Positions 9,277 through 39,256 of a DNA stretch of 64,000 bases are shown here, one piece after another. The notes under the pieces were generated by a model that saw only the letters and a list, made by a program, of their open reading frames with translations, had not been told where the DNA came from and did no database searches. The stretch is taken from assembly GCF_009712035.1 (NCBI RefSeq), contig NZ_VILB01000013.1, positions 540,426 to 604,425 of the forward strand, in the 5' to 3' direction. The stretch comes from Anabaena sp. UHCC 0187 (GTDB lineage: Bacteria; Cyanobacteriota; Cyanobacteriia; Cyanobacteriales; Nostocaceae). Every line of letters starts with the position of its first letter. Positions within the stretch are counted from its first letter, which is position 1. Both the position numbers and the translations under genes were made by a program.

Positions 9277-9342
9277 AGATCCCCGACTTCTGAAATTAAT
9301 TTAGTCATATTAGCGAAAATTTTGGCAAAGAAGTCGGGGATA
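9277..9342. repeat. 66-bp dispersed hairpin repeat, copy 1
   Basis: Ends are inverted repeats AGATCCCCGACTTCT / AGAAGTCGGGGAT around an AT-rich centre. A second copy of the same length with the same ends lies at 24059-24124. It sits between grxC and gshB and could fold as an intercistronic hairpin. Confidence 0.85.
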
Positions 9343-22262: not shown

Positions 22263-24032
22263 ATGAGGAATCCAGAAAAGCAATATTCAACTTTAGTACA
22301 AATGCTACGGCATCAGGCATTCCATCAACCTAACCAAATAGTATTTAGGTTTCTTCACAATGGAGAACAAGAAACAGATAAATTAACATATCAAGAGTTA
22401 GACCAAAAAGCCAGAGCCATTGCATATCAACTACGTCAAACTATTAATCGGGGTGAAAGGGTATTATTGCTATATCCGCCTGGTTTAGAATTTATTAGCG
22501 CCTTCTTTGGATGTTTATATGCTGATGCGATCGCCGTTCCCGTGAATCCCCCACGACCAAACAGACCAGCGAATCGACTTTTAGCAATCAAATCCGATTC
22601 ACAAGCGACATTAGCAATCACTACAACCTCTCTATTAAACAAACTACAACTCAAACTAACTAATTATTTAGAATTAGCAACTTTACCTTTAATAACTACC
22701 GATGACATTAATCTTAACCTAGCTTCAGAATGGCAGCCATCAACAGCAAACATAGACTCTTTAGCCTTTCTCCAATACACATCAGGATCTACAGGTACAC
22801 CTAAAGGAGTAATGGTCACTCATGGTAATCTACTGCATAATTCAGAGTATATAAAACAAGCATTTGAACTCACACCAGAAAGCGTGTCTGTCAGTTGGCT
22901 ACCCAGTTTTCATGATATGGGTCTAATTGATGGGATTATTCAACCCTTGTACACCGGATTTCTGACAGTTTTGATGGGACCTGAATTTTTTATCCAGTCC
23001 CCTGGGCGATGGCTACAGGCGATTACAAACTATAAAGCTACTCACTGCGGTGGACCCAACTTTGCCTATGATATTTGCACTCAAAAGATTACACCTCAAC
23101 AAATGGAATCCCTGGATCTAAGTAGCTGGGAAAGTGCTTACAGTGGTTCAGAACCGGTGAGAAGGGATACTTTAGAGAATTTTACTGCTAAATTTGCCCC
23201 TTATGGTTTCCGTGCCAACTGTTTCTACCCCTGCTATGGTATGGCTGAATCTACGTTAATGATTTCCGGCGGACGAATTCAAGAAAAACCAATTTACTGC
23301 ACAGTTGCAGCAGAAGCATTAGAACAAAAATTGGTGATAGAAACATCTGAAGACAGCCAAAATATCAGACATATAGTTGGATGTGGACGAGCTTGGCTGA
23401 ATACAGAAATCGTTATAGTTGAACCAGAATCGCTTCAGCAGTGTACTTCCGAACAAATAGGAGAAATATGGGTATCAGGTGAAAGTGTTGCCCAAGGCTA
23501 TTGGAACCAACCAGAACTTTCAGAAACAGCCTTTGGTGCTTATTTAGCAAATACTAATGAAGGTCCGTTTCTCCGCACTGGGGATCTGGGATTTTTGCGA
23601 GATGGTGAGTTGTTCATTACTGGACGGATGAAGGATCTGATTATTATCAGAGGTCGCAATTATTATCCCCAAGATATCGAACTCACAGCAGAAAGCAGCC
23701 ATCCAGCTTTGCGTGCTAATTGTTGTGCAACTTTTGCCATAGAACAAGACAATATAGAGCAGTTGATAGTTGTGGTTGAAGTTGAACGTACACACCTGCG
23801 GCATCTGAATGTCAAAGATGTAGTAGCAGCAATCTCCGAAGCAATCATGCAGCAACATGAAATCCATGCTTATGGTATGGTGCTGATTAAAACTGGCAGT
23901 ATTCCTAAAACTTCCAGTGGCAAAATTCAACGGCGTATTTGCAAAGAAAAGTTTCTTGACCAAACTCTGAATATTGTAGGAGGAAAAATTGGCAACTCAG
24001 AGTTATCAAGTCCTTTAATTTTAACTGCATAA
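22263..24032 (+). CDS. Fatty acyl-AMP ligase (FAAL)
   Basis: Activates a free fatty acid as acyl-adenylate and passes it to an acyl carrier protein instead of CoA. The 589 residues are typical of FAALs. Motifs are the P-loop LQYTSGSTGTPKGVMVTHGNL, SWLPSFHDMGLIDG (typical of FAALs), NCFYPCYGMAEST, FLRTGDLGFL and ITGRMKDLIIIRGRNYYPQDIE. The C-terminal GKIQRRICKEKFL carries the catalytic lysine region. It heads a co-directional cassette: four desaturases, ACP and DUF302 follow. The only interruption is a 66-bp hairpin repeat in the 144-base gap before the first desaturase. Confidence 0.93.
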   Translation: MRNPEKQYSTLVQMLRHQAFHQPNQIVFRFLHNGEQETDKLTYQELDQKARAIAYQLRQTINRGERVLLLYPPGLEFISAFFGCLYADAIAVPVNPPRPNRPANRLLAIKSDSQATLAITTTSLLNKLQLKLTNYLELATLPLITTDDINLNLASEWQPSTANIDSLAFLQYTSGSTGTPKGVMVTHGNLLHNSEYIKQAFELTPESVSVSWLPSFHDMGLIDGIIQPLYTGFLTVLMGPEFFIQSPGRWLQAITNYKATHCGGPNFAYDICTQKITPQQMESLDLSSWESAYSGSEPVRRDTLENFTAKFAPYGFRANCFYPCYGMAESTLMISGGRIQEKPIYCTVAAEALEQKLVIETSEDSQNIRHIVGCGRAWLNTEIVIVEPESLQQCTSEQIGEIWVSGESVAQGYWNQPELSETAFGAYLANTNEGPFLRTGDLGFLRDGELFITGRMKDLIIIRGRNYYPQDIELTAESSHPALRANCCATFAIEQDNIEQLIVVVEVERTHLRHLNVKDVVAAISEAIMQQHEIHAYGMVLIKTGSIPKTSSGKIQRRICKEKFLDQTLNIVGGKIGNSELSSPLILTA

Positions 24033-24058
24033 ATTGTCAGAATTCAGGTGAGGCGATA

Positions 24059-24124
24059 AGATCCCCGACTTCTTTTATGATTGTGTCCATAAATTATAAA
24101 TTGATCTGGTGAAGTCGGGGATCT
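24059..24124. repeat. 66-bp dispersed hairpin repeat, copy 2
   Basis: Ends AGATCCCCGACTTC / GAAGTCGGGGATCT, perfect over 14 bases. Same length and ends as the copy at 9277-9342; the inside is different. It lies between the FAAL gene and the first desaturase and may act as an mRNA processing or attenuation hairpin. Confidence 0.88.
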
Positions 24125-24176
24125 GGATATGAATGATTTCTATAGCTGAATACTTACCATAAATTGAGGAAATACA

Positions 24177-25163
24177 ATGTCCATACCATTGGATAGCCCC
24201 GCACAACATCAAGGACCAAAGATAACCATAGAAAATGATTATCTCAAATCCCTGCAACAGCGTTACGCCTTTGCTACTATCTTGATTCCTTTTTTTGGGT
24301 TAGTAATAGCCATCTATACAACTTTTAAGTTTGGTATCAGTCCAGTAGAAATTGAACTATTCCTGGTAATGTATACCTTGACAATGTTGGGAATAACAGT
24401 GGGTTTTCATCGACATTTTGCCCACTGTGCTTTTGCATCCAATACATTCATTAGAGTCCTATTGGCGATATTGGGGTCTATGTCCGCTCAAGGACCAGTC
24501 ATCCAATGGGCAAGTATTCACCGTAGGCATCACAAATATAGCGATCGCCCCGGTGATCCCCATTCACCCCTAATCTACCAAGGAGAAAAATGGGGAACTT
24601 TGCGGGGATTGTGGCATGGGCAAGTTGCCTGGATGTTGAACAGTGACGTTACAAATACGGCTGTTTTTGCCAAAGACTTGCTCAGAGATCCAATTATCAG
24701 CAAAGTCAATCGTTTGTATCTGACTTGGGTTGTTCTTGGTTTAGCCATTCCTGCTATCTTAGACGGACTTTTTACCTGGACTTGGACAGGCATTTTACAG
24801 GGATTTCTTTGGGGAGGATTGGTGCGAATCTTTTGCGTCAATCATGCCTTTTGGACGATTAATTCCATTGCCCATTATTATGGACAGCGCCCTTTTGAGA
24901 CAGAAGAACACAGCCATAACACATTCTGGCTATCCCTAGCCAACTTTGGCGAAGCTTGGCACAACAATCATCATGCCTTTCCCCACTCAGCCCTCTTGGG
25001 TTTGAAATGGTGGCAAATTGATATTGGTGGTTGGGTGATTCTTGCTCTAAAAAAAGTAGGTTTAGTTTGGGATCTCAAAACCCCCACAGCAGGGATGATC
25101 ACAGAAAAATTGAATGTTCACAAACAGTCTGAATATTCAAAATTAGATGTCAACAACTTCTAG
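24177..25163 (+). CDS. Membrane fatty acyl desaturase 1 of 4 (DesC-like)
   Basis: A di-iron membrane desaturase of the delta-9/stearoyl type, 328 residues. All three histidine boxes are intact: HRHFAH (78-83), HRRHH (115-119) and HNNHH (262-266), plus the accessory NSIAH (229-233). Four hydrophobic segments flank them (for example ATILIPFFGLVIAIYTTF). It is the first of four adjacent, clearly divergent paralogues downstream of a FAAL. That place suggests an acyl-ACP-bound substrate rather than a membrane lipid, by analogy with JamB. Position of the double bond cannot be read from the sequence. Confidence 0.93.
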   Translation: MSIPLDSPAQHQGPKITIENDYLKSLQQRYAFATILIPFFGLVIAIYTTFKFGISPVEIELFLVMYTLTMLGITVGFHRHFAHCAFASNTFIRVLLAILGSMSAQGPVIQWASIHRRHHKYSDRPGDPHSPLIYQGEKWGTLRGLWHGQVAWMLNSDVTNTAVFAKDLLRDPIISKVNRLYLTWVVLGLAIPAILDGLFTWTWTGILQGFLWGGLVRIFCVNHAFWTINSIAHYYGQRPFETEEHSHNTFWLSLANFGEAWHNNHHAFPHSALLGLKWWQIDIGGWVILALKKVGLVWDLKTPTAGMITEKLNVHKQSEYSKLDVNNF

Positions 25164-25236
25164 CCAACTTGACTAGAATCCAGATTGTTGTGTACTGACA
25201 AATTTTTCTATTGCCAAATATTAGAGGATTTAGAAA

Positions 25237-26190
25237 ATGACAACACATTTCGATAGTACAATACCAAATCAAAAAACAAAAGTTATCATCAATGACTACA
25301 TCAAAGGATTGCAATATAAGCATTTTTGGTGGTACAACTTCATTCCCTTTTTAGGAACAATTGTGGCGCTAATTTCCCTCTGGTGGCTACCCATTGGACC
25401 CATCGAGATCGGGATGCTGATTGCCATGTGGGCTTTGACCATGACCGGCGTAAGTGTAGGTTTTCATCGCTACTATACCCATCGTTCTTTTAAAACTCAC
25501 CAGGTAATGCGGGTAATATTCGCCATCCTTGGTTCTATAGCTGGGCAAGGTCCATTAATTTCCTGGGTAGCCGTCCATCGTCGTCATCATGAATGTAGTG
25601 ACCTACCCGGAGATCCCCATTCTCCAAATCTTCACGGTCAGGGATTTTTGGGAACTATCAAAGGATTATGGCATTCCCATGTCGGCTGGTTAATTGATCA
25701 TGATTATCCTAATCCCACATATTATGCTCCCGAACTCCTGCGAGATCAAACCATATCCAAAATTAGCCGATTTTATCTAGTTTGGATACTTCTTGGTCTA
25801 GCTATTCCCACTGTGATCGGCGGACTACTTCATTGGTCATTGATAGGAGCATTGCAAGGCTTTCTTTGGGCTGGTATCGTGCGAATTTTTCTTGTAGATA
25901 ACATTATCTTGAGTGTTAATTCTGTATCTCATGTCTATGGGACTCATCCTTATGAAACAGGAGATCAAAGTAAGAATAACCCTTGGATAGCAATCCCCAC
26001 TTTTGGAGAGTCTTGGCAAAACAATCACCATGCCTTTGAAAGCTCCGCTGCTATTGGTTTGAAATGGTGGCAAGTTGACTTTGGTTATGCAGTGGTTTGG
26101 ATATTAGCAAAATTAGGCTTGGTCTGGGATGTAAATCTACCCACAGTCAAGATGATGGCAGCGAAAAGAATTACCATAGCTCAGGACTAA
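25237..26190 (+). CDS. Membrane fatty acyl desaturase 2 of 4, altered third histidine box
   Basis: 317 residues, same family. Box 1 is HRYYTH (77-82) and box 2 HRRHH (114-118). The third box reads QNNHH (261-265): the first His found in the other three paralogues is Gln here. NSVSH (228-232) is kept. The downstream motif is DQSKNN where others have DHSRNN or similar. The substitution removes an expected iron ligand, so the enzyme may be inactive, may use another ligand, or may have changed chemistry such as acetylenase or hydroxylase activity; which one is not decidable here. The gap to the previous gene is 73 bases. Confidence 0.92.
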   Translation: MTTHFDSTIPNQKTKVIINDYIKGLQYKHFWWYNFIPFLGTIVALISLWWLPIGPIEIGMLIAMWALTMTGVSVGFHRYYTHRSFKTHQVMRVIFAILGSIAGQGPLISWVAVHRRHHECSDLPGDPHSPNLHGQGFLGTIKGLWHSHVGWLIDHDYPNPTYYAPELLRDQTISKISRFYLVWILLGLAIPTVIGGLLHWSLIGALQGFLWAGIVRIFLVDNIILSVNSVSHVYGTHPYETGDQSKNNPWIAIPTFGESWQNNHHAFESSAAIGLKWWQVDFGYAVVWILAKLGLVWDVNLPTVKMMAAKRITIAQD

Positions 26191-26227
26191 ATTCCCGACT
26201 ACAAAATCAATGTAGGTTGAGCAAACA

Positions 26228-27160
26228 ATGCAAGTAATAACAATCAAAAGCGATCGCCTGAAAAGACAACAGGAAATTCACGGCATCACTAATCTCATTA
26301 TTCCCTTTCTCGGCTCTGTTGCCGCAGTCATCCTAGCTGTTCAGATCGGTGTGAGTGCCGTAGACATCTGGCTGCTGCTGATTATGTATTTTTTAACAGC
26401 GATTGGCGTAACAGTAGGACTACATAGACACTTTGCTCACTGCTCCTTTCAAGCTCATCAAACTGTCAAAATTATCCTTGCTGTCCTGGGTTCTATGGCC
26501 GCAGAAGGACCCCTAAATTATTGGGTAGCTACCCATCGTCGTCACCACAAATACAGCGATACCCCCGGAGATCCCCATTCCCCCTTTATCAAAGAAGACA
26601 AAAAATTGGGTTTTCTCGAAGGACTATGGCATTCTCATGTCGGTTGGACATTCAATCATGAACTCACTAACACTTTTATCTTTGCCAAAGACATGGTGCG
26701 AGATCCGATCATGAACAAAATTAGCCAACTCTATTATTTATGGTTGTTTTTAGGGGTAGCTATTCCCGGTGTTATTGGTGGCATCATCTCAGGAACTTGG
26801 ATGGGTGCGTTAACAGGAACATTATGGGGTGGCTTTCTCCGCATCTTCCTCCAACACCATTTAGGCTTCTGGACCGTTGGCTCTCTTGCCCATCTATTAG
26901 GAAATCGTCCTTTTCATACTGACGACTATAGCCGTAATAACCTATGGGTGGCTTTGTTTACCTGTGGAGAATGGCACAACAACCATCACGCTTTTCCTAA
27001 TGCAGCAATTCATAGTTTCCAATGGTGGCAATTAGATATGGGTGGCTTAGTGATTCAACTACTAGAAAAGCTCGGTTTGGTTTGGGATCTGAAAATGCCC
27101 ACAAATGAGATGATCGCCGCTAAAAAAAGAAAGGTTAGTGCTACTGAAGCCATCAATTAA
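26228..27160 (+). CDS. Membrane fatty acyl desaturase 3 of 4, Asn ligand replaced by Gly
   Basis: 310 residues, the shortest paralogue. Boxes are HRHFAH (66-71), HRRHH (103-107) and HNNHH (250-254). The accessory motif reads GSLAH (218-222) instead of NSxxH; in stearoyl-CoA desaturase structures this Asn takes part in metal coordination. One residue is also missing just before the third box (CGEWHNNHH against FGEAWHNNHH). Gap to the previous gene is 37 bases, with the start at ATG 26228. Confidence 0.92.
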   Translation: MQVITIKSDRLKRQQEIHGITNLIIPFLGSVAAVILAVQIGVSAVDIWLLLIMYFLTAIGVTVGLHRHFAHCSFQAHQTVKIILAVLGSMAAEGPLNYWVATHRRHHKYSDTPGDPHSPFIKEDKKLGFLEGLWHSHVGWTFNHELTNTFIFAKDMVRDPIMNKISQLYYLWLFLGVAIPGVIGGIISGTWMGALTGTLWGGFLRIFLQHHLGFWTVGSLAHLLGNRPFHTDDYSRNNLWVALFTCGEWHNNHHAFPNAAIHSFQWWQLDMGGLVIQLLEKLGLVWDLKMPTNEMIAAKKRKVSATEAIN

Positions 27161-27208
27161 CCTTCAAGTCAGGCATGAAATACACCAAAGCAATCATCAA
27201 GAGCAACA

Positions 27209-28189
27209 ATGGATTTAACTTCTCAAGTAATTACAGAACCTCTTGTCAATCCAGATAAGAGACAAAAAACTGTAACAGCCCCTCATCTGACAGTTCCTCA
27301 AACCATTCACTTCATCTTGTTTGAAGTTGTACCTTTTTTGGGATTCATCACCGCCATTGTTTTACTGTGGTGGATTCCCCTTAATTGGGTGAACTTAGGA
27401 CTGTTTATCAGTCTATGGTTTCTCACTCAAATTGGATTTACTGTGGGTTGGCATCGACTTTTTAGCCACAATGCTTTTAAGGCCAATGTCGTCGTTCGGG
27501 TAACTTTGGCAATTCTTGGCTCTATGGCTGCCCCCGGTCCTTTGCTTTTGGCAGTAGCCGCCCATCGTCGTCATCATGAATATGCTGATCAACCAGGAGA
27601 TCCCCATTCTCCCCATCTCTTTGGAGCAGGATTTGGTGGTCAGATCAAAGGCTTTTGGCACGCTCATGACGGCTGGTTAGCTACCAATAGAGAACACCCC
27701 AATACCATCCACTATGTCCCGGACTTACTGCGCGATCAAGCACTTACAACAGTCAGCCGATATTATTTGCTGTGGGTGACTTTAGGACTGGTAATTCCTG
27801 CTATTGTAGGCGGAGTTTTCACAAACTCATGGCTGGGAGCATTCCAAGGCTTTCTTTGGGGAGGATTGGTGCGGATGTTCTTCGTTAATAACCTGATCAA
27901 TGGTGTCAACTCTTTCTCTCACGTCCTTGGAGGTCGCTCCTTTAATACCCCAGATCACAGCCGAAACAATCTCTGGCTGGCTCTCCCTTCCTTGGGTGAA
28001 GGATGGCACAATAGTCACCATGCTTTTCCTCAATCAGCCATTTTCGGTTTCGACTGGTGGCAAATTGATATCGGTGGCTGGGTCGTCCTGCTTTTAGAAA
28101 AGCTGGGTTTAATTTCCGATGTCAAGATTCCTACAGCCGATACTATCAAAGCTAAAAAAGCCTTTTTAGCAGCTAGAAAGGCCACATAG
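27209..28189 (+). CDS. Membrane fatty acyl desaturase 4 of 4
   Basis: 326 residues, all boxes complete: HRLFSH (82-87), HRRHH (119-123) and HNSHH near residue 271, with NSFSH. The N-terminus is about 10-25 residues longer than in the other paralogues. HRLFSHNAF in place of HRHFAH and WHNSHHAF in place of WHNNHHAF mark it as the most diverged copy with complete ligands. Forty-eight bases after desaturase 3. Confidence 0.93.
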   Translation: MDLTSQVITEPLVNPDKRQKTVTAPHLTVPQTIHFILFEVVPFLGFITAIVLLWWIPLNWVNLGLFISLWFLTQIGFTVGWHRLFSHNAFKANVVVRVTLAILGSMAAPGPLLLAVAAHRRHHEYADQPGDPHSPHLFGAGFGGQIKGFWHAHDGWLATNREHPNTIHYVPDLLRDQALTTVSRYYLLWVTLGLVIPAIVGGVFTNSWLGAFQGFLWGGLVRMFFVNNLINGVNSFSHVLGGRSFNTPDHSRNNLWLALPSLGEGWHNSHHAFPQSAIFGFDWWQIDIGGWVVLLLEKLGLISDVKIPTADTIKAKKAFLAARKAT

Positions 28190-28254
28190 CCGGATTGCAC
28201 TTTTAACCACCTAATCAAAGTTTTTATCTCAGATCAATTCAGGAGAAAATACCG

Positions 28255-28527
28255 ATGAAAATGCCAAATCAAGAGATTATTGCCGAAAAACAGCAAACTG
28301 TGACCGCTATTCAAGCCTGGTTAGTTTCCTATTTATCCCAACTTTTGGAAATTGATCAAAATGAAGTCAATGTGACAACTTCTTTTGACCGCTATGGTTT
28401 GGATTCCTCTGCAACTATTGGATTAACTACCGATTTAGGTGATTGGTTGGGACGTTCTATTGATCCAACTATCACCTATGATTACCCCTCAATTGAGTCT
28501 CTATCAGAACATCTATCTGGATCATAA
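28255..28527 (+). CDS. Acyl carrier protein of the FAAL-desaturase cassette
   Basis: A free-standing ACP of 90 residues. The phosphopantetheine serine lies in RYGLDSSATIGLTTDLGDWLG. The N-terminal helix EKQQTVTAIQAWLVSYLSQLL and the end YDYPSIESLSEHLSGS are typical of ACPs paired with FAALs in cyanobacterial natural product clusters, and unlike the fatty acid synthase AcpP. It is 65 bases after desaturase 4 and in the same orientation, so it is the likely acyl acceptor. Confidence 0.93.
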   Translation: MKMPNQEIIAEKQQTVTAIQAWLVSYLSQLLEIDQNEVNVTTSFDRYGLDSSATIGLTTDLGDWLGRSIDPTITYDYPSIESLSEHLSGS

Positions 28528-28625
28528 GCTAATTCAGGTCTGAGAAAATATTAACCCCCTTGCTATTAGCTGGGGGGCTAAAAATTAGATATTTAGAATA
28601 TTTGTCAAATCAGAAATCAAGAGAT

Positions 28626-29117
28626 ATGGAAATTATTAATTTCACAGTAACTCATGTAAAAGTTTGTTCAGAAAAATCTTATACCCAAGTTACCACTGCT
28701 ATAGAGTCATTAGTTGGTAAAGCTAATAATCTAATTTTTCAAAAGCTGATAGATGCAAATGCCTCTTTTACAGATGTAGAAAATGCAGTTAAATCAATGG
28801 TTGGTAAAAATGATCTGATGATTTTTACACACCTGGAATCTGGTAAAGTGCTTTCCTTATGTGGCAAATTTAAACAAGCAAAACTCTATATTATTGGCAA
28901 CCCGCTCATAGCTAATCGAATGTTTGAAGAAGATCCGTCCGTCGGGCTTTATGTTCCCCTGCGACTTTTTGTGTATGATGAATATAATGGTAAAACTTGC
29001 ATTATCTATGACAAACCTTCATCTCTCTTAGCTAGATTTGAAAATCAGAAAATTTTGAGGGTTGCAGAAATGCTCGATCAAAAGTTGGCAGAATTAGTGA
29101 CAATGGCTGTCCAATAG
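28626..29117 (+). CDS. DUF302 domain protein
   Basis: 163 residues from ATG 28626 (MEIINFTVTHVKVCSEKSYT); the TTG at 28560 would add 22 unlikely residues. The DUF302 pattern covers most of the protein: TAIESLVGK, a second SMVGKNDLMIFTHLESGKVLSLCG, AKLYIIGNPLIANRMFEEDPSVGLYVPLRLFVYDE in pieces, and a C-terminal helix. No enzymatic function is established for the family. It is the last gene of the cassette, 98 bases after the ACP, so a role in binding the hydrophobic product or substrate is conceivable. Confidence 0.82.
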   Translation: MEIINFTVTHVKVCSEKSYTQVTTAIESLVGKANNLIFQKLIDANASFTDVENAVKSMVGKNDLMIFTHLESGKVLSLCGKFKQAKLYIIGNPLIANRMFEEDPSVGLYVPLRLFVYDEYNGKTCIIYDKPSSLLARFENQKILRVAEMLDQKLAELVTMAVQ

Positions 29118-29119
29118 TA

Positions 29120-29215
29120 TTAGGACTTACGCACAAGTTACGGAATAACGAACCGCAGAGGACGCAGAGAACACAGAGGAATGAGGGTTTGAGAGAGATT
29201 TTGCGTAAGTCCTAA
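29120..29215. repeat. 96-bp inverted-repeat element (MITE-like)
   Basis: Perfect 14-base ends TTAGGACTTACGCA / TGCGTAAGTCCTAA. The inside has the CGCAGAGGACGCAGAGAACA motif that I know as widely scattered in Nostocales genomes. It starts three bases after the DUF302 stop and closes the FAAL-desaturase cassette. A related run (CGCAAAGGCGCAAAGG) lies at 29250-29265. Confidence 0.85.
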
Positions 29216-29272
29216 GTATATCAGGAGTCAAAGTTAATAAAAGTTTCGCGCAAAGGCGCAAAGGAATAAAGA

Positions 29273-30760
29273 CTAAAATACTTCTAAGCCCGGAAACTGT
29301 CCCATTTTTTGAGCTTGTGCAGCTTCTCCACAAGTATGAGGTGTAGGGAATATCTTACCAGGATTTGCTAAACCTTGAGGATTAAAAGCTAGGCGTAACA
29401 GTTGCATTGTCTCTAAGTCAGCATCATTGAACATTTCCGGCATTAAACATTTTTTATCAGCACCAATACCATGTTCTCCAGAAATACTTCCACCCACTCT
29501 TACACAAAGTTTGAGAATTTCGCCACTTAATTCTTCCACCTGTTTAAAAGCACCAGAAACAGAATGATTATAAAGAATGACTGGATGTAAGTTACCATCA
29601 CCAGCATGAAGGGTGTTAGCAATACGATACCCATATTTATTTCCCAACGCGGCAATTTCTTTGAGGACAGATGCTAATTGAGTCCGCGGGATAACTCCAT
29701 CTTGGAGAAAATAATTACTCTGATATCCTAAAGCAATTAGGGCAGTTTTACGCCCTTGCCATAGTTTCACGCGCATTTGTTGGTCACTAGCAATAATTAC
29801 ATTCCTGGCTCCGTTTTGTTGACAAATTTTAGCAACCTGCTGTTTATTGCTTTCCACTTCTACTGCTAAACCATCAAGCTCTATCAATAAAACCGCCGCC
29901 GCATCTCTAGGATAACATCCTGTATTAATAACATCTTCTATGGCATTAATTGTCATATTATCCATTAGTTCCATCGCCGCCGGCATAATTCCAGCACTAA
30001 TAATATTAGTGACGGCATTTCCTGCGTCTTCAATAGTGGCAAAGTCTGCTAGAAGTGTACCAATGGCTTCAGGTGTCTTAATAATGCGTAAAGTGATTTC
30101 TGTAGCAATGCCTAAAGTGCCTTCTGAACCAACAAATAAGCCTGTGAGGTCATAACCAGGCATTTCTGGAATCATTCCCCCAACATCGACCACAGAACCA
30201 TCAGTAATTACCAATTTTAATCCCAAAACATGATTGGTTGTCACACCATATTTCAAGCAATGAATACCACCAGCATTCTCCGCAATGTTGCCTCCAATTG
30301 TGCAAACAGTTTGACTGGAAGGATCTGGCGCATAGTAAAATCCACTACCACTAATGGCTTGAGTTACCCAATTATTGATGACCCCTGCTTGGACAATAAT
30401 CAGTTGATTTTCTAGGTCAACTTTCAATATTTGCTTCATCAATGTGGTGACAATTAAAACACAATTTTCAACTGGTAGCGCACCTCCAGATATACCTGTC
30501 CCCGCACCCCGTGTCACCCAAGGAATTTGTTTTTGATGGCAAATTTTGACTACTTCTGCTACTTGTTCTGTGGTGCGTGGTAGTACAACTAATGCTGGAC
30601 GTTGACGATAGCTAGTTAAACTATCACATTCATAGGTGAGTAATTCTTCTCGGCGTTGAATAACACTTTTTTTGCCCACTATTGCCTCAAATTTTTGGGC
30701 AATTTTTCGCCATTCAGTTGGTTTTGTTTGTAGATGAGGGAGAATATTTTTAGGAATCAT
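29273..30760 (-). CDS. glcD: Glycolate dehydrogenase / FAD-linked oxidase GlcD
   Basis: Oxidises glycolate (or D-lactate) to the keto acid; in cyanobacteria it takes part in photorespiratory glycolate recycling. The 495 residues have the FAD_binding_4 domain first (RGAGTGISGGALPVENCVL, NIAENAGGIHCLKYGVT, GSEGTLGIATEITLR) and the FAD-oxidase C-terminal domain after it (LHAGDGNLHPVILY, SGEHGIGADKK). The next repeated element has replaced any partner gene: no glcE/glcF lies here. Its ATG overlaps the CATG shared with the opposite strand, and grxC copy 2 starts 41 bases away in the other direction. Confidence 0.92.
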   Translation of the reverse strand: MIPKNILPHLQTKPTEWRKIAQKFEAIVGKKSVIQRREELLTYECDSLTSYRQRPALVVLPRTTEQVAEVVKICHQKQIPWVTRGAGTGISGGALPVENCVLIVTTLMKQILKVDLENQLIIVQAGVINNWVTQAISGSGFYYAPDPSSQTVCTIGGNIAENAGGIHCLKYGVTTNHVLGLKLVITDGSVVDVGGMIPEMPGYDLTGLFVGSEGTLGIATEITLRIIKTPEAIGTLLADFATIEDAGNAVTNIISAGIMPAAMELMDNMTINAIEDVINTGCYPRDAAAVLLIELDGLAVEVESNKQQVAKICQQNGARNVIIASDQQMRVKLWQGRKTALIALGYQSNYFLQDGVIPRTQLASVLKEIAALGNKYGYRIANTLHAGDGNLHPVILYNHSVSGAFKQVEELSGEILKLCVRVGGSISGEHGIGADKKCLMPEMFNDADLETMQLLRLAFNPQGLANPGKIFPTPHTCGEAAQAQKMGQFPGLEVF

Positions 30761-30800
30761 GGCTACAATAGAAACACTATTACTCTACATTAAAAATTCC

Positions 30801-31073
30801 ATGACTGCTAAAGTAGAAATTTACACTTGGACTTATTGTCCTTTCTGCCCTAGAGCCAAAGCCTTATTGAAAAACAAAGGTGTTGAATTTACGGAATACT
30901 CTATTGATGGGGATGAGGTTGCTAGAGCGAAGATGGCTGAACGGGCTAATGGCAGACGTAGTGTACCTCAAATTTTCATCAACGATCAACATATTGGTGG
31001 TTTTGACGACATTTCCGCATTAGACAAGCAGGGTAAGCTAGACGAACTTTTAAATACCAAACTGAGTGGCTAA
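30801..31073 (+). CDS. grxC: Glutaredoxin 3, copy 2
   Basis: Paralogue of the gene at 9003. From ATG 30801 (MTAKVEIYTWTYCPFCPRAK) it has 90 residues; an upstream ATG at 30759 would add 14 unrelated residues. Active site CPFC, SVPQIFIND cis-Pro region and GGFDDISALD are canonical. Its 3' end overlaps the convergent gshA gene by 24 bases, so the two glutathione genes are physically locked together. The C-terminus NTKLSG is encoded inside the overlap. Confidence 0.94.
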   Translation: MTAKVEIYTWTYCPFCPRAKALLKNKGVEFTEYSIDGDEVARAKMAERANGRRSVPQIFINDQHIGGFDDISALDKQGKLDELLNTKLSG

Positions 31074-32189
31074 GTCAATTTCTTGCTTGGCCATCTCTTG
31101 AATGGCTTTGGTAATAATTGAACGAATATCAGCACCTTGAGCATACATTTTTAACCATTTTTGTGCGGTATTACCTTCCTGTAAGATTGTTTGCACAGGC
31201 AAAATAAAATGCTCAAAGCCTTGTTGTTTAACTAATGGCAAAACATCATTATAAATCTCATTGATCCAATTACGAGCTAGAATTTTTCTGCCGTCTTGCC
31301 AATGTCTTAACTCAGCATCTAAACTTAATACCTTGACGGCGGCTTCATTAGCTTTTGTTAAATCAATTAAGTCTTGTTTTCTAGTTGTTGCTGGTAATTT
31401 ACTCATTTCTAAAGGGTCGAGGTTAGGATCATTAACCAATTGCCAAAGACGGGCTTCTAACAAAGCAGTAATAGCTAGTAAAGAAGTAGGATCAGTAACT
31501 AAGTCACAGATTCTCAGTTCTAGCCGATTAATATCATAAGGACGGCGATCGCCATTCGGTCGCACATTATCCCAATGATGACGAACATTAAACATTGTCC
31601 CTGCGGCTAAATGTCCTTCTACCCATTCAATATATTCGCCGTGGTTTTCAAATAGGGGAATGTGATATTGGGAATGGGGTAAAATATGCCAGCGTGTAGA
31701 GTGATAACCTGTAGTTTGATTATCCAGAAATGGAGAGGAAGCACTTAAAGCTAAATATAGGGGTGCTTCCATTTTAATGAGACGACAAGCTCGGATTAAT
31801 AATTCTGGGTCACTAAAACCAATGTTGATATGAACACTAGCAGTAACAACATTAGTGCCGTGGTTGCGTTCAATGTATTCTAAATAAGGACTTGTATCTC
31901 CTGAACGATAAAAGCGATCGCTTCTTCCTAATGATAATGTACTGCCAGGAATTACTGTATAATCTCCTAAAGTTTTTAGATATTCTCTGAGTTGAATTCG
32001 CGGTAATATTAATTGACTTAAAAGCTGTTCGTAGCTGTGCAGAGGTTCCGTTGTATATTCTATATGCCGTTCGTCTGTTTCTTGCATAAACCTATCCACT
32101 TTCCCCACAACTTTTTCAGCAAAGGGAATGGGATCACCTTGGGGAGTACCCAAAAACATTTCTAATTCAAAACCTTTAGTTAATAGCAT
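31050..32189 (-). CDS. gshA: Glutamate--cysteine ligase, cyanobacterial type
   Basis: First enzyme of glutathione synthesis. The 379 residues match the cyanobacterial GCS2-like family: MLLTKGFELEMFLGTPQGDPIP, ERHIEYTTEPLHSYEQLL, STLSLGRSDRFYRSGDTSPYLEYIE, HGTNVVTASVHINIGFSDPELL and VRHHWDNVRPNGDRRPYDINRLELRICD in pieces. It overlaps grxC copy 2 tail to tail. gshB lies 20 kb away at 9381. Confidence 0.92.
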   Translation of the reverse strand: MLLTKGFELEMFLGTPQGDPIPFAEKVVGKVDRFMQETDERHIEYTTEPLHSYEQLLSQLILPRIQLREYLKTLGDYTVIPGSTLSLGRSDRFYRSGDTSPYLEYIERNHGTNVVTASVHINIGFSDPELLIRACRLIKMEAPLYLALSASSPFLDNQTTGYHSTRWHILPHSQYHIPLFENHGEYIEWVEGHLAAGTMFNVRHHWDNVRPNGDRRPYDINRLELRICDLVTDPTSLLAITALLEARLWQLVNDPNLDPLEMSKLPATTRKQDLIDLTKANEAAVKVLSLDAELRHWQDGRKILARNWINEIYNDVLPLVKQQGFEHFILPVQTILQEGNTAQKWLKMYAQGADIRSIITKAIQEMAKQEIDLATQFGI

Positions 32190-32208
32190 AGAATTTAATT
32201 CAATTTGA

Positions 32209-33231
32209 TCATTTTAATTCTACTTTCTCCAGGTATTTGGCAATTAGTAGACGGACTGCATTCACTACCGGATCTAAATAAGCCTTGGTTAAATTCGGAT
32301 AAGGCTGTGGCTGGTTTTTGCCAATACCAAACTCTAGTTTCTCCTCTTTTTCTGGTATATATAAAGTGCCAAATATCCAATCCCAAATTCCCAAAAATTC
32401 CCCATAGTTCTTGTTAACGTGTTCGGGTGCTATACTGTGATGAATTTGGTGTAGCACTGGACTCATAAAAATGTGGTTCAATGTCTTTCCATAGGAAAGC
32501 CAGATGTGGGAATGGGCGAGATTACCACCTGCCATATAATATATAGCGACCAAAAAATTCAGACCAAACATGGTCATGAGATGGATTTTACCAAAAAACA
32601 GATAAATTAGTACCGCTTGTAAAGGGGCGCTGATGGCTGTAGTAATCAGCTTTTTATTGAGTTCATATAACGGGTGAGAACGATACAGAGTGATGGGGGT
32701 CAAGACTTCGCTGGAATGATGTAGACTATGAAATTGCCACAGGATAGGATTTTGGTGATGCCAAGCATGATTAAGGTAAGATGCAAAGTCAAAGACTACG
32801 ATAAATAAGATGGTAAAAATCATTAGCGATAACCAATTTTCGGTTATAAATCCGCCGAAATCACCAAAGGTTTCTTGTAGCCAATTATTGACTAGGGATG
32901 CTACCAATGATGTCTCTAACCATGCTAGACGTAAACCACCCGGTGCAAGCATATTATTGATGATAAATAGCTGATAATCAAGCTTTGCTGAAGGATGAAG
33001 ATAGATTTCTTTTGGGAAGCAAAAACTAATAAACCTTTTCAGATTAAGTTCAGACTGAGGTCGTAAACGCCAGTAAACGAATCCGGCTAACAATAAAGAT
33101 GTTAATAAATATACCCAATAAAGGCGACGGCTACCATTAAGGTGATTGGATATCTGACTGCGGAAGTATTCAAGAATCTGCCATAACAATCTTTCTAAAT
33201 CTGCTACCCAACGTGGTAATTCTGCTGTCAT
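32209..33231 (-). CDS. Sterol desaturase / fatty acid hydroxylase superfamily membrane protein
   Basis: 340 residues with several hydrophobic segments (YLLTSLLLAGFVYW, FTILFIVVFDFASYL). Histidine clusters of the superfamily are HAWHH, HSLHH and, near the C-terminus, HQIHHS followed by NYGEFLGIWDWIFGTLY. These predict a non-haem di-iron hydroxylase or desaturase. The substrate is unknown; carotenoid, sterol-like or fatty alcohol substrates are possible. The gap to gshA is 19 bases, same strand, so they may share a message. It lies between the FAAL cassette and the PKS and could modify a lipid product, but this is inference from place only. Confidence 0.85.
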   Translation of the reverse strand: MTAELPRWVADLERLLWQILEYFRSQISNHLNGSRRLYWVYLLTSLLLAGFVYWRLRPQSELNLKRFISFCFPKEIYLHPSAKLDYQLFIINNMLAPGGLRLAWLETSLVASLVNNWLQETFGDFGGFITENWLSLMIFTILFIVVFDFASYLNHAWHHQNPILWQFHSLHHSSEVLTPITLYRSHPLYELNKKLITTAISAPLQAVLIYLFFGKIHLMTMFGLNFLVAIYYMAGGNLAHSHIWLSYGKTLNHIFMSPVLHQIHHSIAPEHVNKNYGEFLGIWDWIFGTLYIPEKEEKLEFGIGKNQPQPYPNLTKAYLDPVVNAVRLLIAKYLEKVELK

Positions 33232-33280
33232 ACTTCTTTGTGATTAGATGTACTAGAAGTGAAAATAGACTAAACAATAT

Positions 33281-34264
33281 TTAGGCTTGTTGATCAAGTG
33301 AAATTTCTCTATCCGTTACTTTCTGAGAGCCTTGACCAGATTTAGCTAAATATATACCAGCCAACACTGTGAAAAAAGCGAACCAGTTGACAATACTTAA
33401 CTTTTCCGCAAATATTACCCAGGCTAATATGGCAGTAATGATTGGATCAAGCAATAGGAACAAAGATACAAAACCTGATGAAAACTTTTTCAAGTTATGG
33501 AACATAATTACTGTAGCCAGCACTTGACAGAAAAGTGCTAAAGAAATCACCGCTAACCATCCGTTTACGGAAACGGGGAAAACTTGCTTATCAAAAATCA
33601 AAGTTATTGGTAACAGCCAAAGAGTTCTGAAAAAACAACTCCAGAGGATGATGGTTGTTGCAGAAAACTTGGCTCTTAGTTTTTCTGCACAGAGAGCATT
33701 TCCAGCATAAAACACAGCCGAGAGTAAAGCTATAGCATCACCTGTAAAGTGAGTGCTGGTCAAGTTAAAATCTTCAAAACCAATGGCGATCGCCCCGACT
33801 GAAGCTAAAATCAAACCCATAATAAATTTGCTGTCAAAACTGTGCTTTAAAAATAGCCACCCCCCTAAAGTGGCGAAAAATGGGGTGAAATTATGCAATA
33901 AATTAGAGTTAGCGATGTTGGTTTGAGTTAAAGACCAAGCCCAAGCAGTTAAGTTGGCTGCACCGAAGCCCGCAGCTAGTACAAACAGTCCTATATCCTG
34001 AAGAGTCCAAGACTCTGGTTGTTCAGGGGATTTCTGGGATACTTTACTACTGATAATTGTGATTACTTCCCACAGCCCAAGGATGACAGTAGAAATCCAA
34101 AAGCGATTAAAGACTGTAGCATTAGGACTAATTTCCAGTTCGCTGACCCTGATAAATATTGGCGCTAGAGATAACATAAACACTGCTATAGGAATTAGCA
34201 GTAGAGTATTCAAGGTTGGTTTTTTTTCAGTCTGTACTTCTGGAACATTGACTGTGGTGGTCAT
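33281..34264 (-). CDS. EamA/DMT-family transporter
   Basis: An integral membrane protein of 327 residues with about ten hydrophobic segments in two EamA repeats (LLLIPIAVFMLSLAPIFIRV at the start; FVSLFLLLDPIITAILAWVIFAE in the second repeat). Drug/metabolite transporters export small metabolites. It is divergent from the PKS gene with a 219-base shared upstream region, and 49 bases separate it from the hydroxylase gene downstream. Export of the PKS product is a natural guess; no direct evidence. Confidence 0.88.
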   Translation of the reverse strand: MTTTVNVPEVQTEKKPTLNTLLLIPIAVFMLSLAPIFIRVSELEISPNATVFNRFWISTVILGLWEVITIISSKVSQKSPEQPESWTLQDIGLFVLAAGFGAANLTAWAWSLTQTNIANSNLLHNFTPFFATLGGWLFLKHSFDSKFIMGLILASVGAIAIGFEDFNLTSTHFTGDAIALLSAVFYAGNALCAEKLRAKFSATTIILWSCFFRTLWLLPITLIFDKQVFPVSVNGWLAVISLALFCQVLATVIMFHNLKKFSSGFVSLFLLLDPIITAILAWVIFAEKLSIVNWFAFFTVLAGIYLAKSGQGSQKVTDREISLDQQA

Positions 34265-34483
34265 AATTTTTTTAGGAATGTTGATTGAACTGCACGTATA
34301 TACTTACCCATGCTTCTACTACGTGGTTGTAGGTAATTCTACAATCAATATACTTGTTATCTGGAGATTTTTTGAACTCGATAGATAAAATGAGTGGTAA
34401 AATCCTAATTTAGCTATTCTTATAGTTGGCACTATCGTCATTATTACGAATTTTCTAGGAATAAATATACAAAGAATATCTTT

Positions 34484-37400
34484 ATGGAAGCTATAGCAAT
34501 AATTGGCATGGGTTGTCGTTTCCCAAAAGCTCAAGATATAGAATCTTTCTGGAAGCTACTCAGGGAAGGAGTAGATGCAATTACAGAGATACCTTTAGAA
34601 CGATGGGATATTAATGATTTATATACTCCCACAGCAGGTACACCAGGAAAAACTGTCTCCCGCTGGGGAGGCTTCTTAGACAAGATAGATCATTTCGAGC
34701 CTGATTTTTTCGACATTTCCGCTAGTAATGCCCAACGTATTGATCCTCATCATAGACTGGTACTAGAGGTAGCTTGGGAATCTTTAGAAAATGCCGGTAT
34801 CGTCCCCAAAACTCTAGCGGGTAGTAAAACTGGGGTATTCATTGGCATGAGCCAAAGCGATCATAATCGGCTCATTTATAAGGATATATCTACCATAGAT
34901 GCCGAAGACGGACCCCATACTTTTCTTTGCTTTGTAGCTAATCGCTTATCTTATTTTTTAAATCTGCAAGGTCCAAGTTTAGCTATTGATACCGCTTGTT
35001 CTTCATCCTTGGTTGCAGTACATTTAGCCTGTCAGAGTTTACGTAGTGGTGAATCTAACTTGGCTATAACTGGAGGAGTATCCCTACGTTTATCCCCGGA
35101 GGAATCAATCGCTCTTTCTCTTAAAGGTATGCTATCACCTCAAGGTCGTTGCCAAACCTTCGATGCTGGAGCTAATGGTTTTGTCAGGGGTGAAGGTTGC
35201 GGTATTATTATACTTAAACGCCTTGACGATGCCCTCAAAGATCAAGACAATATTCTCGCCATCATTAGAGGTTCGGCCGTTAACCAAAATGGTCTTAGTC
35301 ATGGCATTACATCACCTAATGGCATAGCTCAACAAACACTTCTCAGTCAAGCCCTGGAAAATGCGGGAGTAGAACCAACGGAAATTAGTTATGTGGAAAC
35401 CCACGGAACTGCCTCCGGTTTAGGAGATGCTATCGAGTATAAAGCTTTAAAAGCAGTATTGATGCAAAATAGAGAATCACATCAACCTTGTTGGCTTGGC
35501 TCTGTCAAAACTAATATTGGTCATTTAGAAGCAGCCGCCGGTATAGCAGGACTGATCAAGACAACGCTATCATTACAACATCAGCAGATTTTTCCTAATC
35601 TACACTTTAAACAACTAAATCCTTATATTTCTTTAGCAGGAACCACCTTTTCTATCCCCACTGCTTTACAGTCTTGGCATTCTATCACACAGACAAGATT
35701 TGCCGGAGTTAGTTCTTTTGGTTTTGGTGGTACTAACTGTCATATCATTCTGGAAGCAGCCCCTTTATCGTCTCAGCAAAATATCGCCACAAGGGAACGC
35801 CCCCTACATATTCTGACTTTATCAGCTAAAACGGAAAAGGCACTATTAGACTTGGCAAATCTTTATCTAGAAAAGTTGCAGAACCGTGATCTCAATTTTT
35901 CACTGGCAGATTTATGCTTCACTGCTAATACTAGCAGAACTCATTTTCATCATCGTCTGGCTGTAGTAGCAGAATCACGAGAAATATTGATAGAGAAGTT
36001 AGCAGCTATTGTATCAGCAACAAATACTTTCGGAAAAGATCAGAAGCGATCGCTCAATGGTAAACAACCCAAAATAGTATTTTTATTTCCAGATCAAAGT
36101 AGTCAATATCTCAACTCATGTCGTCAACTTTATGAAACTCAACCTACCTTTCGGGCTATTCTAGAACGCTGTCAAGAAATTATTCGCCCTTATTTAGATC
36201 AGCCACTACTAGAAATTTTATATCCAGACAATCAACCAACAACAACTAATCTCCTCAATCAAACAGTCTATACCCAATTTGCCTTATTTGCCCTGGAATA
36301 TGCCCTAGCTGAGTTATGGAAATCCTGGGGCATCATCCCAGATGCAGTTATGGGTTATAGTATGGGCGAATATGTGGCCGCTTGCGTGGCTGGGGTATTT
36401 AGTTTAGAAGATGCCTTTGAGTTAATTGCCCAACGGGAAAATTTAAGATCATCATTGTCCCATGAGGAAGCAACTGTAACTTATTCATCCCCAAAAATTA
36501 GGATCATTTCTCCAGTTACCGCACAACCAATTACAGCAGAAATTGCAACTCCAGAGTATTGGTGTCATCATATCAAGCAGCCAGTTCAATTCGCTGATAG
36601 TATCAAAACACTTCATAATCAAGGTTATCAAGTATTTATAGAGGTAAGTCCTGAGTCTTTACTTCTAGAAATGGGTTCTCAATTCCTAGATCATGGGGTA
36701 GGAATTTGGTTAACAGGTCTGAATGCAAACCAGGAAGACTGGCCACAACTGCTGCAAAATTTAGAAACGCTATATTTACAGGGAGTTTCTATAAATTGGC
36801 ATGGCTTTGATCAGGATTATCCTCGACGGAGGGTGAAAATACCAACTTATCCATTTCAAAGACAACGGTACTGGTTTGATCAGAATGCAAATAGTTTTTA
36901 CCAAACCACTCCATCATCAAATCATACTTCTAATACTTCAACTCCAGAAATAACTTGTGCAAATAGTCTGGAAACTTTATCAAACACAGAGTTACAAACT
37001 GCCACAAATAATGATTCTCCTGAATCAGCACCAGTTATTTTAACTCATACAGCCGCATCAATCGAGAATTGGATAGTCAACTGGCTGCATAAAAATTTAG
37101 AAGTACCAACCAAATTAACCGAGAATAGTAAATCTGAGCAATCTTTTCTAGATTATGGACTCAAATCCATAGAAGCAGTAAAATTAGCCAAAGATTTAGA
37201 AAAATTGCTAGGACGTTCCTTAGAAGCCATCATTGTTTGGAACTTTCCCACTGTGGAAACTTTAGCTCTTCACTTAGCTGGTGAACTAGAAAACCCAGTC
37301 TCAACCCCAAAAGAGGAGCAGAGAAGCTTAATAAAGCAATTACCAATCACCAATTATCAATCACCAAAAAAAGCCATGCAATTTAGTCTGTTATACTTTG

Positions 37401-39256
37401 CCAGTAACGAGGCTGAGTTTAACAGCGACAAGTATAGATTATTGATTGAGGGGTCAAAATTTGCCGATAAATACGGCTTAACCGCAGTTTGGATACCAGA
37501 ACGGCATTTTCACGCCTTTGGTGGACTCTACCCCAATCCTGCCGTCTTAGGTTCTGCCCTAGCGATGGTAACTGATCGCATTCGTATCCGTGCTGGTAGC
37601 GTGGTTTTACCCCTACATAACCCCATCCGAGTAGCTGAAGAATGGGCGGTAGTAGATAATCTCTCCCAAGGACGAGTAGACATTGCTTTTGCCCGTGGTT
37701 GGAACCCGAATGATTTTGTGTTCGCACCTGATAATTTTGCCAATAGTGCAGAAGTGATGTTTTCAGGCATTAAAACAGTACAGAAACTCTGGCAAGGTGA
37801 ATCAATCTCCTTACAGAATGGTATTGGTAAAGAAACCCAAACCAGAATTTACCCCCTACCCAAACAAAAGGAAATAGACATTTGGATTACTTGTACGGGG
37901 GGAAAAGAGAGATTTATGGAAGCTGGTGCTATGGGGGCGAATGTCTTAACAGCCCTTCTGTTTCAACCCATTGAAGAATTAGCTGAAAAAATCGCCTCTT
38001 ATCGAGAGTCACGGGCAAAAAATGGTCATGATCCCGAAGCTGGTCAAGTTACCCTCATGCTGCATACTTTTATTGGCGAAGATATGAACTTAGTGCGCCA
38101 TAAAGTCAGGAAGCCATTTACTAACTATCTAGAAAGTTCAGTCAATTTGTGGAGACATGGTATCACAAGTTTGGATGGTTTGGATGAGAAAGACAAAGAA
38201 CATTTATTGGCTTATGCCTTTGAACGTTATTTTCAAAGTAGTGCCTTAATTGGTACACCAGAAAGCTGTCAGTTAATGGTTGAAAAACTACAAGCAATTG
38301 GCGTTGATGAAATCGCCTGTTTAATTGACTTCGGAATTGATGCAGATGCAGTCATGGCTTCTCTCTATTCCCTCAAAAAACTTAAAGAACAATCTGAGTT
38401 AATGATTGTAACCGATGAAGATAATATCAATCAATCGCTAACAGTAAAAGACAAACAGAGCGTCAATTTACAAACATCACAAACATTACAAATATCAGCA
38501 AAATGGATAATTAACCCCCAACGAAAAGCGAATGCTAAGTTACGTCTTTTCTGTTTACCTTATGCGGGAGGAGATATTTCTGTATTTAAAAATTGGTCTA
38601 ATAATCTACCAGCAGATATTGAAGTTTATCCTCTCCAGCTTGCTTCTCAGAAATCCCCTGGAAGTAAACAACATTTTGATTGTTTGACTTCATTAGTAGC
38701 AGATTTGGCAGAATTTTTGTTGCCCCATCTTGATCAGAAATTTGCTTTTTATGGTCATAGTTTAGGAGCATTAATTAATTTTGAATTGTGTCGTTATTTG
38801 CGTCGTCACCATCATTTGCAACCGATTCATTTCTTTGTCGGCGCTCAACACGCGCCCCAACTTCCTTATCCTTATCCTTCCTTAGAAAATCTTTCTCGCT
38901 CCGAATTACTCAATTTTGTCAAAGATTTAACGAATCTAGAACTATCTGCATCAGTTGGGGAAGATGATACATTTTTGCAGTTGTTACTAAATTCTTTGAA
39001 AGCAGCATCTGTGATTCAAAAAGATAACTATTCTTATACAGAAGAAGTACCGCTAGATTTTCCCATTACTAGCTTTTTTGGTAGCGAGGATAAATTTTTG
39101 AACCAAGAACATCTTTCTGCTTGGAGCGTTCATACTAATAGTTCATTTAGGCTACATAAACTTGATGGTAAACATCTGTTTTTGGAGAGTCATCGAGAGC
39201 AAATTTTACAATTGATATCCCAAGATTTAAGGTTATTTGGTGAAAAGAGCGGTTAG
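34484..39256 (+). CDS. Single-module type I PKS: KS - degenerate AT - ACP - luciferase-like monooxygenase - thioesterase
   Basis: 1590 residues. KS (1-430) has all catalytic residues: C172 in DTACSSS, H307 in ETHGTAS, H347 in NIGHLEA. The AT region (about 528-795) has S626 in GYSMGEY, but the sequence jumps from LIAQRENLRSSLSHEEA to TYSSPKIRIISPVT; the roughly 90-100 residues that normally carry the specificity loop and catalytic His (HAFHSPL type) are gone, and FTGQGSQ is FPDQSSQ. ACP at about 855-935 with S895 (YGLKSIEAV). A MupA/Atu3671-type FMN luciferase-like monooxygenase covers about 964-1295 (MQFSLLYFASNEAEF, VWIPERHFHAFGG, FARGWNPNDF). The thioesterase (about 1325-1590) has YGHSLGAL. 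No KR, DH or ER is present. It needs malonyl loading by another AT, or none. Confidence 0.9.
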   Translation: MEAIAIIGMGCRFPKAQDIESFWKLLREGVDAITEIPLERWDINDLYTPTAGTPGKTVSRWGGFLDKIDHFEPDFFDISASNAQRIDPHHRLVLEVAWESLENAGIVPKTLAGSKTGVFIGMSQSDHNRLIYKDISTIDAEDGPHTFLCFVANRLSYFLNLQGPSLAIDTACSSSLVAVHLACQSLRSGESNLAITGGVSLRLSPEESIALSLKGMLSPQGRCQTFDAGANGFVRGEGCGIIILKRLDDALKDQDNILAIIRGSAVNQNGLSHGITSPNGIAQQTLLSQALENAGVEPTEISYVETHGTASGLGDAIEYKALKAVLMQNRESHQPCWLGSVKTNIGHLEAAAGIAGLIKTTLSLQHQQIFPNLHFKQLNPYISLAGTTFSIPTALQSWHSITQTRFAGVSSFGFGGTNCHIILEAAPLSSQQNIATRERPLHILTLSAKTEKALLDLANLYLEKLQNRDLNFSLADLCFTANTSRTHFHHRLAVVAESREILIEKLAAIVSATNTFGKDQKRSLNGKQPKIVFLFPDQSSQYLNSCRQLYETQPTFRAILERCQEIIRPYLDQPLLEILYPDNQPTTTNLLNQTVYTQFALFALEYALAELWKSWGIIPDAVMGYSMGEYVAACVAGVFSLEDAFELIAQRENLRSSLSHEEATVTYSSPKIRIISPVTAQPITAEIATPEYWCHHIKQPVQFADSIKTLHNQGYQVFIEVSPESLLLEMGSQFLDHGVGIWLTGLNANQEDWPQLLQNLETLYLQGVSINWHGFDQDYPRRRVKIPTYPFQRQRYWFDQNANSFYQTTPSSNHTSNTSTPEITCANSLETLSNTELQTATNNDSPESAPVILTHTAASIENWIVNWLHKNLEVPTKLTENSKSEQSFLDYGLKSIEAVKLAKDLEKLLGRSLEAIIVWNFPTVETLALHLAGELENPVSTPKEEQRSLIKQLPITNYQSPKKAMQFSLLYFASNEAEFNSDKYRLLIEGSKFADKYGLTAVWIPERHFHAFGGLYPNPAVLGSALAMVTDRIRIRAGSVVLPLHNPIRVAEEWAVVDNLSQGRVDIAFARGWNPNDFVFAPDNFANSAEVMFSGIKTVQKLWQGESISLQNGIGKETQTRIYPLPKQKEIDIWITCTGGKERFMEAGAMGANVLTALLFQPIEELAEKIASYRESRAKNGHDPEAGQVTLMLHTFIGEDMNLVRHKVRKPFTNYLESSVNLWRHGITSLDGLDEKDKEHLLAYAFERYFQSSALIGTPESCQLMVEKLQAIGVDEIACLIDFGIDADAVMASLYSLKKLKEQSELMIVTDEDNINQSLTVKDKQSVNLQTSQTLQISAKWIINPQRKANAKLRLFCLPYAGGDISVFKNWSNNLPADIEVYPLQLASQKSPGSKQHFDCLTSLVADLAEFLLPHLDQKFAFYGHSLGALINFELCRYLRRHHHLQPIHFFVGAQHAPQLPYPYPSLENLSRSELLNFVKDLTNLELSASVGEDDTFLQLLLNSLKAASVIQKDNYSYTEEVPLDFPITSFFGSEDKFLNQEHLSAWSVHTNSSFRLHKLDGKHLFLESHREQILQLISQDLRLFGEKSG

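Follow-up and report, generated by a model that had tools for sequence, protein, structure and literature searches.

A 64,000-nt stretch of DNA from Anabaena sp. UHCC 0187 (GCF_009712035.1, contig NZ_VILB01000013.1, positions 540,426-604,425 of the forward strand; hereafter the window) was analyzed for a set of fatty acid-activating and desaturating genes. The seven genes at 22263-29117, all on the + strand, encode a fatty acyl-AMP ligase (FAAL), four membrane desaturases (D1 to D4), a stand-alone acyl carrier protein (ACP) and a DUF302 protein, and this operon is one part of a cluster of 13 genes and ~17 kb (22263-39256). With a probability of roughly 0.6, the cluster, which was most likely transferred horizontally, carries an enlarged JamABC-type starter cassette whose four desaturases help to supply an enyne- or polyene-type acyl-ACP to one polyketide synthase (PKS) module. 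The cassette is of the JamABC type in expanded form; no description of the cluster around it was found in open-licence papers. What the cluster probably makes, in a bloom-forming cyanobacterium, is a lipid-type natural product with a high degree of unsaturation, perhaps with an alkyne group.

The JamABC-type cassette and its four desaturases

The FAAL, a membrane desaturase and the stand-alone ACP are encoded together and adjoin in the cluster, as in JamABC of the jamaicamide pathway (Moorena/Lyngbya), in which JamB has been demonstrated to act as a terminal acetylenase (PMC4356899). A Moorena locus (L148) served as reference; it encodes, in order, a FAAL, a desaturase, an ACP, a 683-aa protein, a PKS (ketosynthase (KS)-acyltransferase (AT)-PhyH-type domain-three ACPs), a KS and a 3-hydroxy-3-methylglutaryl-CoA-synthase-like protein. 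This order matches that of the jamaicamide cluster, and L148 was labelled jamaicamide-type by architecture, not by a deposited JamB sequence. The cluster ACP is 56% identical to that of L148, with the GLDSS motif in both. D2 alone of the four desaturases groups with the L148 enzyme (support 98/95 in a careful tree of 50 rows); the two are 66% identical and have the QNNHH and VDN signatures in common. A starter pathway of the JamABC type, as proposed in the initial annotation, is thus borne out. JamABC has one desaturase and is followed by the jamaicamide assembly line, whereas the window cluster has four and continues with the DUF302 protein, a GlcD-type oxidase, a glutaredoxin (Grx), a gamma-glutamylcysteine ligase (GshA) and a PKS with a luciferase-like monooxygenase and a thioesterase (TE) domain. 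JamE is a halogenase of the non-haem iron/2-oxoglutarate family (PMC8406957).

The four desaturases were described at the outset as divergent throughout, and their pairwise identities of 46-52% and separate lineages agree with this. All have three histidine boxes, except that in D2 the third box opens with Q instead of His (QNNHH). In D3 a G occupies the position equivalent to N265 of SCD1. At the tunnel-cap positions (SCD1 numbering) D2 matches the L148 enzyme (Met/Trp), but DesC also has Trp there, and the match is therefore not diagnostic. In the 50-row tree D3 groups at 100/98 with the second of the two desaturases in the cassettes of G030, G336 and Amazonocrinis, and D1 and D4 are separate lineages. 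A single clade of D1 to D4, as expected from recent tandem duplication, was ruled out by the trees and by the approximately unbiased test (p = 5e-8).

All four are SCD/DesC-type FA_desaturase proteins, and they could in principle be housekeeping DesC paralogues whose amplification served cold adaptation and which adjoin FAAL and ACP genes by coincidence. This explanation is highly improbable: the four are only about 36% identical to the DesC-type enzyme of the genome, the DesC-type enzyme of the genus is split from them at 100/100, and their relatives adjoin FAAL and ACP genes throughout. DesC paralogy was ruled out by the identity and the separation in the tree, and chance placement of the FAAL and ACP genes by their conserved linkage. 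The outcome that the initial annotation had named as refuting its proposal, four DesC paralogues at loci whose homologues lack FAAL and ACP, was not obtained.

Relatives of D1 were sought order-wide in 391 genomes (E <= 1e-55) and were found in 60 of them. They are typically encoded in the arrangement FAAL-desaturase(s)-ACP, which a PKS gene often follows. Most loci hold one copy and some hold two or three together; four desaturases together were found only in the present cluster.

Comparison was also made with the bacterial polyyne clusters (cepacin, caryoynencin, collimonin, protegencin), which are arranged as FAAL-two desaturases-ACP-desaturase-TE-rubredoxin (PMC8406139, PMC9098870). These likewise devote a FAAL, an ACP and several desaturases to one chain; the window cluster differs in its four desaturases and its PKS module. 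The desaturase triad of a Streptomyces locus (L199), the one reference triad used, fell outside the D1 to D4 clades in a quick tree with long branches. No rubredoxin is encoded within the conserved block, the only one seen nearby (41872-42216) lying outside it beside the Ycf48 gene, and no stand-alone thioesterase or hydrolase is encoded in the cluster, where TE occurs only as the last PKS domain. By the features tested, the cluster does not belong to the bacterial polyyne clusters known so far, and the kinship with them suggested in the initial annotation was not upheld.

Fischerellins A and B are cyanobacterial polyynes that, like the proposed product, must need several desaturations. A 2021 paper counted only two cyanobacterial polyynes, both without a known gene cluster, and reported that of fischerellin as unknown (PMC8406139). 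No described cluster of the present make-up was found in the open-licence literature on fischerellin, anabaenolysin and Dolichospermum clusters.

Extent, conservation and transfer of the cluster

Pfam matches of the seven operon open reading frames (ORFs) were counted at the curated cut-off, and those above it were AMP-binding, FA_desaturase (four times), PP-binding and DUF302. The gaps from the FAAL through the DUF302 gene are 144, 73, 37, 48, 65 and 98 bases, with ATG 28626, which is kept among relatives, chosen over TTG 28560 as the DUF302 start. Seven co-directional genes with gaps of 37-144 bases had been claimed, and the ORFs, the Pfam matches and the order conserved in three other genomes confirm this. 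The genes placed at 22263-29117 are there, but the unit itself reaches about 39256; the initial annotation overlooked the PKS, the deletion in its AT and the remaining linked genes. Beyond the operon the cluster encodes the GlcD-type oxidase, Grx, GshA (a second copy), a protein of the fatty-acid-hydroxylase family, an exporter of the EamA family and the PKS (Table 1).

The seven operon genes occur in identical order in Dolichospermum sp. LEGE 00240 (G004), of the same genus as the window strain, and in G283 and G258, which belong to another family; because of this recurrence the gene order is not attributed to chance. In G283 and G258 the operon adjoins the genes for GlcD, Grx, GshA, the hydroxylase-family protein, EamA and the PKS as in the window, with the FAAL operon inverted relative to it. 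In LEGE 00240 the non-operon genes are on a second contig and the hydroxylase is reduced to a 37-residue remnant. Within the genus, the four-desaturase operon was found in the window genome and LEGE 00240 and in none of 14 other congeners searched; in the congener G010 there is a single desaturase of another kind.

Between the window and G283/G258 the cluster proteins are 72-96% identical and the housekeeping proteins GcvT and Ycf48 63% and 59-61% identical, respectively; on these values, the cluster most likely moved horizontally. The genes flanking the cluster differ in G283 and G258. Values of dN/dS (NG86, against G283) were 0.09-0.33 across the 12 genes tested, D1 to D4 included, all of which are thus under purifying selection.

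The neighbouring genes are likewise tied to the cluster. Within the genus, no genome but the two carriers (the window strain and LEGE 00240) has two GshA copies. The single GshA of the congeners is about 55-59% identical to the cluster GshA; it is encoded elsewhere, with no GlcD or Grx gene beside it, which rules out that the GlcD, Grx and GshA genes are mere housekeeping neighbours of the operon. An EamA orthologue (94-96% identical; >90% identity searched) was found in the genus, outside the window strain, only in LEGE 00240. DUF302 proteins in the genus are confined to cluster carriers; the predicted model of the window protein (predicted local distance difference test score, pLDDT, 66) matches the DUF302 structure 1q9u, which confirms the fold and does not reveal the function.

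Miniature inverted-repeat transposable element (MITE)-like repeats were seen in the FAAL-D1 gap, which is 144 bases long in the window and 60 in G283, and at the boundary of the operon inversion. Because of these repeats, read-through from the FAAL gene to D1 and a single transcript are not certain. A promoter scan gave 28 matches, against 34 in shuffled sequences, that is, no excess. Directly upstream of the FAAL gene and outside the conserved block, a 785-aa protein (19645-22002) had no Pfam match (E <= 0.001).

Table 1. Genes of the cluster and MITE-like repeats, in window coordinates.
Feature	Position	Strand	Remarks
FAAL (fatty acyl-AMP ligase)	22263..24032	+	Pfam AMP-binding, FAAL-type NCBIfam models; 81-90% identical in three other clusters
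MITE-like inverted repeat, FAAL-D1 gap	24059..24124	.	14-nt perfect arms; second copy 9278-9342
Desaturase D1	24177..25163	+	FA_desaturase; own lineage in tree
Desaturase D2, JamB-type	25237..26190	+	L148 desaturase 66% identical, clade 98/95, QNNHH box
Desaturase D3	26228..27160	+	clade 100/98 with second desaturase of other two-desaturase cassettes
Desaturase D4	27209..28189	+	FA_desaturase; separate lineage; 93% identical in G283
Stand-alone ACP	28255..28527	+	PP-binding; GLDSS motif
DUF302 protein	28626..29117	+	PF03625
MITE-like inverted repeat, operon inversion boundary vs G283/G258	29120..29215	.	17-nt arms
GlcD-type FAD oxidase, second copy	29273..30760	-	69% identical to genome's other copy
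Glutaredoxin 3, extra copy	30759..31073	+	conserved start about 30801
Second gamma-glutamylcysteine ligase	31050..32189	-	gshA_cyano 556 bits, cut-off 249
Fatty-acid-hydroxylase superfamily protein	32209..33231	-	PF04116; kept in G283/G258
EamA-family transporter	33281..34264	-	PF00892
PKS: KS-AT-ACP-luciferase-like monooxygenase-TE	34484..39256	+	domain models

Proposed pathway and alternatives

In the pathway proposed, a fatty acid would be converted to acyl-AMP by the FAAL and loaded onto the stand-alone ACP. The ACP-bound chain would then be dehydrogenated successively, in a presumed order, by D1 to D4, which are membrane di-iron desaturases. D2, being of the JamB type, would most likely form or finish a triple bond, perhaps a terminal one, and D1, D3 and D4 would introduce further double or triple bonds of presumptive number and type. 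The resulting enyne- or polyene-type chain would prime the KS of the PKS, to which it is putatively coupled, and undergo one malonyl extension. Hydroxylation by the luciferase-like monooxygenase domain (TIGR04020, 505 bits), probably next to the carbonyl, and release by the TE would follow. Alpha-hydroxylation is assumed by analogy with microginin- and puwainaphycin-type modules. GlcD, in a putative role, and the hydroxylase-family protein may tailor the product, and EamA may export it. Because polyynes are covalent inhibitors of an acetyl-CoA acetyltransferase and the cluster of one producer holds a resistance gene (PMC9098870), the additional copies of GshA and Grx may shield the producer against a thiol-reactive product.

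From the kinship of D2 to JamB, a triple bond is the more likely outcome, and D1, D3 and D4 most plausibly add further unsaturation. It is fairly unlikely that the cluster makes double bonds only, that is, a polyunsaturated and possibly conjugated acyl unit, free of triple bonds, that is extended and released by the PKS. Three of the four desaturases fall outside the JamB clade, one double bond per enzyme would be the most economical tally, giving four, and close relatives in Actinobacteria and Proteobacteria adjoin a cyclopropane synthase, an enzyme that acts on alkenes. The JamB-type clade, 66% identity and Q box of D2 argue for a triple bond, JamB being an acetylenase.

A special membrane or envelope lipid, made or modified by the cluster in place of a secreted metabolite, is improbable. 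Desaturases are lipid enzymes, as is the hydroxylase-family protein, which has a weak likeness to the ornithine lipid hydroxylase OlsE; the FAAL, the stand-alone ACP, the PKS with its monooxygenase and TE domains and the transporter are natural-product machinery, and sporadic occurrence with horizontal transfer is a misfit for a core lipid.

Several observations weigh against the proposed enyne- or polyene-type starter pathway. No dedicated electron donor, rubredoxin included, is encoded in the cluster. The FAAL is only 50% identical to that of L148. Members of the same desaturase family are encoded beside cyclopropane synthases in other bacteria, where they more likely form plain double bonds, and membership of the family does not by itself imply a triple bond. 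No product is known for the cluster. In addition, the AT of the window PKS has an 82-residue in-frame deletion after residue 661 (window 36467), by which the AFHS motif and the catalytic His are lost, and the complete KS, AT and ACP of a functional type I PKS module are not present in this copy; the AT is whole in LEGE 00240, G283 and G258. D4 of LEGE 00240 is without residues 18-70 and its frame is changed. The pathway may therefore be broken in both the window strain and LEGE 00240.

Decay of the pathway in the window strain, with real genes, a defective AT and no product, is a serious possibility, and one compatible with the proposed pathway for the cluster as such. Besides the AT deletion, it is favored by the lesions of D4 and the hydroxylase in LEGE 00240 and by IS605-type OrfB transposase genes inside the G283 and G258 clusters. 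All window ORFs are open, however, and dN/dS is low, the PKS included (0.18 against G283). The AT deletion may be real damage or an assembly error, or it may mean that another acyltransferase is needed and compensates.

That the cluster is a cyanobacterial polyyne or enyne pathway which arose apart from the known bacterial polyyne clade, as four separate JamB-family desaturases came together on one ACP, with self-protection by a glutathione branch (GshA and Grx) and DUF302 as a new component, is advanced tentatively and is somewhat doubtful. As a JamABC-type cassette in expanded form, the cluster is a compact system for how several desaturases share the work on one acyl-ACP. Its DUF302 protein is a candidate component of the pathway, and GshA and Grx are candidates for self-protection. 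The carrier Dolichospermum sp. LEGE 00240 is a strain of a public culture collection (named in PMC5982461).

Related cassettes in other genomes

The D2 + D3 pair recurs in other FAAL cassettes. The undescribed two-desaturase cassettes of G030, G336 and Amazonocrinis nigriterrae CENA67 share with the window cluster this pair, the FAAL and the ACP; they differ in having neither D1, D4 and DUF302 nor the GlcD-Grx-GshA block, and in two of the three an AurF/CylC-like gene is present instead (one of them Pfam-weak). In D2 + D3 cassettes a 443-457-aa protein is encoded behind the ACP (L141:6234-7565, L071:13432-14805). The L141 protein has a weak likeness to AurF and is possibly a halogenase of the CylC type, which suggests halogenated unsaturated acyl chains.

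Larger loci were also seen in cyanobacteria. In Aff. Roholtiella sp. LEGE 12411 (L142:2056-13480) a FAAL, three desaturases, an ACP, a cyclopropane-synthase family protein, a PKS and a GMC oxidoreductase are encoded, and related three-desaturase loci occur in Nostoc and Komarekiella (L065-L067, similar to L142). In Westiellopsis prolifica IICB1 (Hapalosiphonaceae; L074:6704-18107) a FAAL, two desaturases (one of them kin to D3), an ACP, a PKS and a TIGR04020-domain protein are encoded.

Loci of Pseudomonas, Nocardia and Gordonia were considered as polyyne clusters and ruled out, a cyclopropane synthase and a P450 being encoded there instead. A cassette of desaturase-ACP-cyclopropane synthase/methyltransferase-P450-thioesterase-FAAL recurs in Pseudomonas, Nocardia, Pseudonocardia and Thalassospira (L082:9923-15790, L088:9947-15069, L196:7995-13874, L198:7935-14103); its product is probably an acyl unit on the ACP that bears a cyclopropane ring or a methyl branch.

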